Origin: Deltaproteobacteria bacterium
Lineage (GTDB): Bacteria; Myxococcota; Myxococcia; Myxococcales; Anaeromyxobacteraceae
Assembly: GCA_016214955.1 (NCBI GenBank)
Contig: JACRMN010000019.1
Span: 186,001 to 250,000 of the forward strand
Length of the DNA stretch: 64,000 bases
Direction: 5' to 3'
Shown here in pieces: positions 30,590 to 34,505 of the stretch. Made by a program: the position numbers and the translations under genes. The notes beneath the pieces are model-generated. The model made no database searches, was not told where the DNA came from, and saw only the letters and a program-made list of their open reading frames with translations. Position 1 is the first letter of the stretch. The number at the start of each line of letters is the position of its first letter.

Positions 30590-30628
30590 CGCGAGCCGCT
30601 CCCTCCCCCGCCAGCTCCTCGATCACCC

Positions 30629-30754
30629 GGTCGCGGTCTCGGTCGCGGTCGGGGTCGAGGTCGTGGTCGGGGTCGAGGTCGAGGTCGTGGTCGGGGTCGA
30701 GGTCGGCGTCGAGGTCGGCGTCGAGGTCGCGGTCGGGGTCTAGATCGCGGTCGT
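30629..30754 (+). repeat. GGTCGN hexamer array, 21 units
   Basis: Twenty-one period-6 units with few changes (e.g. CGTCGA, GGTCTA, GATCGC). The array begins 40 bases past the aldo/keto reductase stop and ends exactly where the stop codon of the convergent cytochrome gene begins (30755). It fills the space where a terminator would be expected. Confidence 0.95.
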
Positions 30755-32137: not shown

Positions 32138-32224
32138 GGCGCCCTCTCCTCGGGGCGCGATGGTACGCGCAGACCGGGGTGGGTGGTCTCGGAATCCGAC
32201 GCAAGGGACCGGGGTAGCGGCCGG

Positions 32225-32315
32225 GGTCGCGGTCGGGGTCGGGGTCGAGGTCGGGGTCGGAGTCGAGGTCGGGGTCGGAGTCGAGGTCGCGGTCGCGGGT
32301 CGGTGTCGAGGTCGG
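32225..32315 (+). repeat. GGTCGN hexamer array, about 15 units
   Basis: About 15 units with period 6 (one extra base near 32297) lie in the divergent region between the start codons of the cytochrome gene (32137) and the YdeI-like gene (32342). An array inside a two-way promoter region could affect both genes. Confidence 0.93.
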
Positions 32316-32341: not shown

Positions 32342-33034
32342 ATGGCCCCCGTCATCCCCGACCCTCGCCGCATCCGGTCGTTCGCGAGCGAGGCCGCCTT
32401 CGAGGCCTGGCTCTCGACCCATCACGACACCTGGCCCGAGCTGTGGCTCAAGATCCACAAGAAGGACTCCGGCCTCCGCAGCGTGACGGCGGTCCAGGCG
32501 ATCGACGTCGCCCTCTGCTGGGGCTGGATCGACGGCCTCCGCAAGGGGCTCGACGAGCGCTCCTTCCTGCAGCGCTACACGCCGCGCGGGCCGAGGAGCG
32601 TCTGGAGCCAGATCAACCGCGACAACGTCGCGCGCCTCACCGCAGCGGGCCGCATGACGCCCCACGGCCAGCGCCACGTCGACGCGGCCAAGGCCGACGG
32701 ACGCTGGGATGCCGCCTACGCTCCCATCGCCAAGGCAACGGTCGCGAGCCTCCCCGCCGACCTGCGCGCCGCCATCGAGGCCAACCCACGAGCCCGGAGG
32801 ACGCTCGGCAGGCTCGACAGGCTCAACCTCTTCGCGCTCGGCTTCCGGACAAGGGCCCTGAAGACGCCCGCCGGGCGCGCGAAGAAGATCGCCGCGCTGG
32901 TGACCACGCTGGCGCGCGGTGAGCCCATCGTCCGCACCGGCGCGCGGTCCGGGTCCGGGACCGGGTCGAGGTCGGGGTCGCGGCCCGGGTCGCGGCCCGG
33001 GTCGCGGTCGCGGTCCAGGTCGAAATCGCCCTAG
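32342..33034 (+). CDS. YdeI/OmdA-like protein with array-encoded tail
   Basis: 230 residues. Residues 1-200 match the YdeI/OmpD-associated family: FEAWLSTHHDTWPELWLKIHKK, VTAVQAIDVALCWGWIDGLRKGLDE, and RTLGRLDRLNLFALGFR. Members are linked to bacteriocin or stress tolerance but their biochemistry is unclear. The last 30 residues are a low-complexity Gly/Ser/Arg tail (alternating S, G, R, P) encoded by a GGTCGN array that has run into the 3' end of the gene. ATG 32342 starts close after another array. No strong ribosome-binding site is visible, so the start is less certain. Confidence 0.8.
   Translation: MAPVIPDPRRIRSFASEAAFEAWLSTHHDTWPELWLKIHKKDSGLRSVTAVQAIDVALCWGWIDGLRKGLDERSFLQRYTPRGPRSVWSQINRDNVARLTAAGRMTPHGQRHVDAAKADGRWDAAYAPIAKATVASLPADLRAAIEANPRARRTLGRLDRLNLFALGFRTRALKTPAGRAKKIAALVTTLARGEPIVRTGARSGSGTGSRSGSRPGSRPGSRSRSRSKSP
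32946..33029 (+). repeat. GGTCGN hexamer array inside a coding region, 14 units
   Basis: Fourteen period-6 units (several as GGTCCG or GGCCCG) lie wholly inside the 3' end of the YdeI-like gene and are translated as alternating Ser/Pro and Gly/Arg codons. The gene stop follows directly and overlaps the end of the next gene on the minus strand. Confidence 0.93.
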
Positions 33035-33642
33035 CGCCTCTTCGCTCCCGCCGCCTCCGCCTCGGCGGCGATCGCCTCGTAGGGTTGGCACCCCACCACG
33101 CGGCGGCGCCCGAGGAAGAAGGTGGGGATCCCGGTTACCCCCGCGCGCGCGGCCTCGCGCCCCATGGCGTCCACCCGCGCGACGAGCCCCGGGTCGGAAA
33201 GCGCCGCCATGGCCGCCGCCGCGTCCAGCCCCGCCTCGGCGGCGCAGCGCGACAGCACCGCCGGGTCCTCCAGGTCCTCACCGCGCCGCCAGAAGGCGTC
33301 CATCAGGGCGTGCCGCGCCTCGTGGAGCCGCCCCCGGTCGCGGGCGTGCTCGGCGAGCGCCAGGGCGGCGCGCGTGCTAGGCGAGCGCTCCGGGATGCGC
33401 ATCCCGGCGATCCCGAACCCCTCGGCGAACCGGCGCAGGTGCTCCTTCATGGCGGCGTAGCGCTGCGCGCCGAACTTCTCCGCCAGGAGCCGCCCGCCGC
33501 GGGGCGTGTCCGGGTGAAGCTCGAAGCCGCGCCAGTCGAGGGAGACGTCGTACTCGGCCTGCAGCCTGACCAGGCTGCTCGCTTCGGCGATGAAGCAGAA
33601 GGGTCAGACGAAGTCGGAGTACAGGGTGACGTTCAGGGGCAT
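33031..33642 (-). CDS. DsbA-like thiol oxidoreductase with active-site TGA (probable selenoprotein)
   Basis: 203 residues when codon 13 (TGA, 33604-33606) is read as selenocysteine (U). The start MPLNVTLYSDFV is followed by U-PFC, the CPxC redox motif of DsbA/FrnE-type proteins with the first Cys replaced by UGA. GVTGIPTFFLGRRRV near the C-terminus holds the cis-Pro of the thioredoxin fold. From 33642 to 33034 there is no other stop, and homology to the DsbA-like family runs through the TGA in frame. A 7-bp hairpin with loop GGUC lies 25 bases after the TGA. Without Sec insertion only a 139-residue fragment starting at 33450, lacking the active site, could be called. The last bases overlap the YdeI-like gene by four. 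A TGT/TGC point mutation or sequencing error is the alternative. Confidence 0.8.
33561..33606 (-). promoter_or_regulatory. Candidate bacterial SECIS element
   Basis: On the minus-strand mRNA, UGA (33606-33604) is followed after 25 bases by GCAGCCU-GGUC-AGGCUGC: a perfect 7-bp stem (33578-33572 with 33567-33561) with a GGUC loop (33571-33568). E. coli formate dehydrogenase SECIS elements also carry GGUC in the apical loop bound by SelB. The loop starts 33 bases after the UGA, longer than in E. coli. A second small hairpin (GCUUC with GAAGC) lies between. Both are inside the coding sequence. Confidence 0.7.
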
Positions 33643-33770
33643 GGGCCCAGTGTAACGAGGGGCCGGGCGCGCGGCATCCCGGAGGCGGGTTCACGCCGGG
33701 AGGCACACCCGTCCCACCACCGGGCGCCCGGAGACGGGCGCCGGCCGCTCACGAGCGCTAGATCCCCGAG

Positions 33771-34463: not shown

Positions 34464-34505
34464 CGTCGGGGCCGCGGTCGAGGTCGGGGTCGCGGTCGAG
34501 GTCGC
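34464..34505 (+). repeat. GGTCGN hexamer array, 7 units
   Basis: Seven period-6 units (the first two degenerate: CGTCGG, GGCCGC) begin 10 bases after the GST stop codon and end 56 bases before the lipid kinase start. Confidence 0.9.

Follow-up and report, generated by a model that had tools for sequence, protein, structure and literature searches.

DsbA-like selenoproteins with a UxxC motif (COG2761) have been in the literature for some two decades: in the accessible portions of the sources, they are reported in 2005 from the Sargasso Sea (PMC1088965), a single one is listed in 2006 for Anaeromyxobacter dehalogenans (PMC1794560), ocean metagenomes contain many of them (PMC2398784), and a 2026 review carries them as a predicted family (PMC13188914). 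The gene described here lies on the minus strand of the window (the whole stretch of 64,000 nucleotides that was analysed) and belongs to this known kind (COG2761 / PF01323, 'DsbA-like protein form 1'), with which it shares the PF01323 fold, a predicted selenocysteine as the first residue of UxxC and a bSECIS element just downstream. It may correspond to the A. dehalogenans protein listed in 2006. The initial annotation, which presented it as an unannotated selenoprotein candidate, thus overstated its novelty, the family having been described, in those same portions, since 2005-2006. Within them there is no individual description of this gene or of its compact UPFC/GCQPYE subfamily; the conservation of a third cysteine, Cys185, is a new detail.

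The closest described cysteine enzymes belong to the FrnE group. FrnE is described as reducing disulfides in the cytoplasm and as having isomerase activity in vitro; it has a CP(W/F)C centre, and many members carry a C-terminal CX4C for regeneration, a pair that is also missing from S. roseofulvus FrnE (PMC8945050). D. radiodurans FrnE (DR_0659; PDB 5cnw, 5co3, 5xwh) has the fold (TM 0.85), the active-site placement and the predicted cytosolic location in common with the window protein, but the two are only ~27% identical, and the window protein would have selenocysteine for cysteine, has Cys185 where FrnE has alanine, and lacks the C-terminal CX4C proposed as FrnE's regenerating pair. S. coelicolor SCO1869 (PDB 3gl5) likewise shares the DsbA/FrnE fold (TM 0.85), its CPWC aligning with the window UPFC, but is a cysteine enzyme of 30% identity without a cysteine at 185. 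Another thioredoxin-fold UxxC protein, the DsbG-like selenoprotein NF041057 (Rcas_1661 family), matches only weakly and in the C-terminal half of the window protein (39 bits against a cut-off of 190), and is a lipoprotein, whereas the window protein has no signal sequence.

Read from 33642 to 33031 on the minus strand, the frame runs for 203 residues from its ATG (33640-33642) to a TAG terminator (33031-33033), with a sole in-frame stop, TGA at codon 13 (33604-33606), in the context SDFV-U-PFCF and with the cis-Pro segment GIPTFF further on; the position and surroundings that the initial annotation had given for a single interrupting TGA are confirmed. The features of the locus are as follows.

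33031-33642, minus strand: predicted selenoprotein coding sequence of DsbA/FrnE type, 203 residues plus TAG stop (open reading frame, Pfam, homologues, AlphaFold2, PDB match)
33604-33606, minus strand: TGA as codon 13, where selenocysteine is predicted as the nucleophile of UPFC (TGA, TGC or TGT only in 105 homologues)
33595-33597, minus strand: TGC codon 16, predicted resolving cysteine of the UxxC motif (cysteine in 105/105 homologues)
33124-33126, minus strand: codon 173, cis-Pro of GIPTFF (column invariant in alignments A5 and A6)
33088-33090, minus strand: codon 185, conserved third cysteine, in VVGCQPYE (homologue alignment)
33561-33578, minus strand: apical hairpin of the predicted bSECIS, GCAGCCU-GGUC-AGGCUGC (33562-33577 without the closing G-C pair; folding, homologues, codon constraint)
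33031-33450, minus strand: 139-residue open reading frame, a fragment of the coding sequence and no separate gene (what standard annotation would call)
33649-33655, minus strand: TTACACT box, 13 nt upstream of the ATG, tentatively a -10 element of a leaderless promoter (family comparison)

The read-through protein matches Pfam DSBA (PF01323) from residue 5 to residue 193 with 113 bits (E 1.9e-32; cut-off 25.6), a resemblance that chance does not explain, in keeping with the earlier claim of family-like sequence through GIPTFF to the end; this sequence starts before the TGA and resumes directly after it. No NCBIfam model scored above its own cut-off, and none of the other DSBA-type matches in the same genome has a TGA. 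Standard calling yields only the fragment from ATG 33450, without the active site, as had been foreseen. Very probably, the interrupted frame is no broken gene but an intact one, encoding a redox enzyme with selenocysteine in its active site.

In 60 relatives and the GTDB contigs, the active site was covered at 110 places, or 105 without duplicates, and codon 13 in these is TGA in 36, TGC in 39 and TGT in 30, a cysteine count that is biased because one of the search patterns, a peptide, contained the cysteine; the TGA forms were found through other stretches. The initial annotation had named the alignment of cysteine homologues at this residue as support for its claim, and they do align there. 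Neither TAA, TAG nor any other codon occurs at position 13 among the 105, and residues 14 (Pro) and 16 (Cys) are invariant. Thirty of the TGA homologues are close and six more distant; they come from Myxococcota and from MAGs assigned to Chloroflexota, Gemmatimonadota, Acidobacteriota and Fidelibacterota, and since the TGA is kept in many independent genomes it is no sequencing error. Protein-level conservation holds on both sides of the TGA (overall dN/dS 0.33-0.54), and codons 14-64, upstream of the ATG of the 139-residue frame, are as conserved as the rest. Cysteine relatives with frame-breaking changes, which had been named as counter-evidence, are absent: close cysteine relatives, L024 for example, have intact frames.

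The coding sequence also holds a bSECIS element, unmentioned in the initial annotation and conserved with the TGA form only. Its hairpin, CAGCCU-GGUC-AGGCUG (MFE -11.1 kcal/mol, z -3.26), places the GGUC loop at 33568-33571 on the minus strand, 32 nt after the UGA. The bSECIS model in the accessible part of the 2026 review allows a loop of 3-9 nt with G in its first two positions, a stem of 4-16 bp, a spacing of 16-37 nt and an MFE <= -7.5 (PMC13188914), and the window hairpin lies within all of these limits. RNAalifold recovered the same hairpin as the main one in 26 TGA homologues, with 96.8% of pair cells formed, versus 50% in seven cysteine homologues; in the MFE fold of the full 54 nt of the window member UGACC pairs with GGUCA instead, and the centroid shows the hairpin. 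It is present in 29 of the 30 close TGA homologues, in none of the seven close cysteine homologues and in 0 of 62 more distant ones; GG opens the loop in 30/30 versus 0/7 of the close forms, and at least five of the six pairs are kept in 29/30 of the close TGA homologues. The apical stem hardly varies, and its covariation is accordingly weak, with a single two-sided change, a level that 57 of 500 shuffles reach. Codon choice is the stronger evidence for the SECIS: residues S22-S23-L24-V25-R26-L27 are written AGC AGC CTG GTC AGG CTG almost free of synonymous change (CTG 29/29, GTC 28/28, AGG 28/30), whilst top-codon use is ~0.5 at other conserved four- to sixfold columns. AGG makes up 5% of arginine codons in nearby genes, and in the cysteine homologues CGG stands at this position in 4/7 and the valine is lost.

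The machinery whose presence was to be checked, selA, selB, selC and selD, is complete in the 5.3-Mb genome: tRNA-Sec (74.9 bits; anticodon UCA by ARAGORN), selA (513.7 bits, split over two pieces of the same frame), selB (309.6 bits, with the SECIS-binding winged-helix domains SelB-wing_2 and SelB-wing_3) and selD (390.8 bits). The selD gene (L019:1471-2424) is a selenoprotein gene in its own right: its frame contains a TGA, in GAG-U-ACK. Across genomes the TGA form occurs in 28 of 50 with selA above the cut-off versus none of 10 without it (Fisher p 0.001, uncorrected for relatedness), and tRNA-Sec is similarly distributed.

A dead gene, in which TGC or TGT mutated to TGA or was misread as such in assembly, could be suggested by the single stop codon and by the cysteine forms of close relatives such as L024, but it fits poorly with a TGA shared by 36 homologues in many genomes (30 close, 6 more distant), with a protein conserved on both sides of it and with a hairpin kept in TGA forms only, and we consider it exceedingly improbable. 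No more credence attaches to termination at the UGA with the gene replaced by a 139-residue product from the internal ATG: such a frame exists mechanically, but its product would, judging from the model, be without the U/CxxC active site, the first beta-strand and the first helix, and the upstream codons 14-64 are conserved like the remainder. The pseudogene, assembly-error and short-frame readings are discarded because of this conservation. Readthrough with another amino acid, for instance Cys or Trp by a suppressor, gains something from the widespread cysteine form, given which cysteine at position 13 would work; set against the dedicated selenocysteine machinery, which this genome has and which accompanies the TGA form, and the bSECIS with its SelB-type GG/U loop, it is very improbable. 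The putative selenocysteine at codon 13 passes every sequence test available, and there can be little doubt that the gene is intact and encodes a cytosolic DsbA/FrnE-type selenoprotein, with a UGA that would be decoded through SelB, tRNA-Sec and the bSECIS. Frame, codon position, SECIS, machinery and predicted fold rest on sequence; selenocysteine insertion, the reductase direction and the substrate are what we infer.

In the AlphaFold2 model (U read as C; mean pLDDT 96.2), a long helix (14-30) follows position 13 and a strand (174-177) follows cis-Pro173. The closest solved structures are FrnE 5cnw (TM 0.85) and its other entries, followed by SCO1869, and sequence alignment puts the first cysteine of CPWC in both 5cnw and 3gl5 at codon 13; this agrees with the earlier proposal that the TGA replaces the nucleophilic cysteine of a DsbA/FrnE-type enzyme. 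Inspection found no signal peptide, the fold beginning at residue 3, directly after the Met, and there is no C-terminal CX4C pair. The only Cys/Sec columns in the family are 13, 16 and 185, the last being cysteine in 26 of 28 TGA homologues and five of six cysteine homologues with residues there, whilst solved FrnE has alanine (GAQ). In the mechanism proposed, SelB and tRNA-Sec, directed by the hairpin within the coding sequence, would insert selenocysteine at UGA codon 13, placing U13-P-F-C16 in a thioredoxin/DsbA fold, at the N-terminal end of its first long helix and facing cis-Pro173. By inference from FrnE and its relatives, the selenolate would attack disulfides of proteins or low-molecular-weight thiols, Cys16 would resolve the resulting selenylsulfide, and the enzyme would be regenerated by cellular thiols or by thioredoxin reductase.

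By analogy, the protein is most likely a selenothiol-disulfide reductase resembling D. radiodurans FrnE; it is analogy, too, that would separate reductase from isomerase function. A selenoprotein with a job other than disulfide reduction (isomerase or chaperone, exchange with GSSG or another thiol, detoxification of metals or electrophiles) is a reading we hold possible, if on balance improbable. D. radiodurans FrnE combines reductase with disulfide isomerase activity, and its mutant shows sensitivity to cadmium (PMC8945050); GSSG is reduced by Lmo1059, a member of the DsbA family (PMC10715225); and a glutathione S-transferase-like gene divergently adjoins the window gene, though this neighbour is not conserved; against such specialisation stands the retention of UPFC and cis-Pro, arranged as in a general thiol oxidoreductase. 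Beyond the reductase reading lies a more speculative and rather doubtful one, in which Myxococcota and MAGs of Chloroflexota, Gemmatimonadota, Acidobacteriota and Fidelibacterota would hold a distinct compact Sec-FrnE subfamily with UPFC and with Cys185 regenerating the Sec-Cys centre in place of CX4C, many members being translated from leaderless mRNAs.

On a tree of 67 proteins the selenocysteine and cysteine forms require at least 6-7 changes (uncorrected for relatedness). L025, with TGA, and L024, with cysteine, are sisters with full support, and L024 retains part of the 5' stem arm and lacks the GGUC loop, a pattern consistent with recent exchange of selenocysteine for cysteine, the direction of which is suggested by the surrounding TGA forms. 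That the exchange goes with SECIS loss is a new detail. The pair L051/L050, from a second clade, shows a loop difference similar to that of L025/L024.

This second, divergent Sec-DsbA clade has UPWC and 33-38% identity, with selenocysteine in L042, L046-L049 and L051 and cysteine sisters in L040, L043-L045 and L050. Its hairpin is different and nearer (the region examined covering ~54 nt from the TGA/TGY codon), as in GGCCUC-GUG-GAGGUC, GGUCUC-GUG-GAGAUC and AGUAC-CGUGC-GUAUU, with changes in both arms of the stem; the cysteine sisters often retain much of the stem, with loops of GCC or UCC versus GUG/GGU.

Upstream, 18 of 36 family members carry a GTTA(nnnT) box 13-15 nt ahead of their ATG, where shuffling would lead one to expect 1.6; these genes often have no Shine-Dalgarno-like sequence, and the box is possibly the -10 element of a leaderless promoter. 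A scan for sigma-70 promoters and terminators found neither. No operon is conserved beyond close relatives, and the neighbourhood is therefore no guide to function; in those relatives the gene immediately upstream, in the same direction, encodes a MobA-like NTP transferase (L025:717-1454, L052:2195-2950), which is not the case for the window gene. Imperfect GC-rich tandem repeats of 6, 12, 18 or 24 bp with GGTCGx-like units (30628-30753, 32210-32315, 32932-33009, 34465-34504) sit just beyond several genes, and one of them enters the C-terminal frame of an OmdA/YdeI-like open reading frame, giving a Ser/Arg-rich tail.

The conceptual gain is a modest one, given that the family was described some two decades ago. 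The selenocysteine reading corrects an annotation that would otherwise give a truncated, inactive protein, and adds a well-sampled family in which the mutual replacement of selenocysteine and cysteine may be studied.
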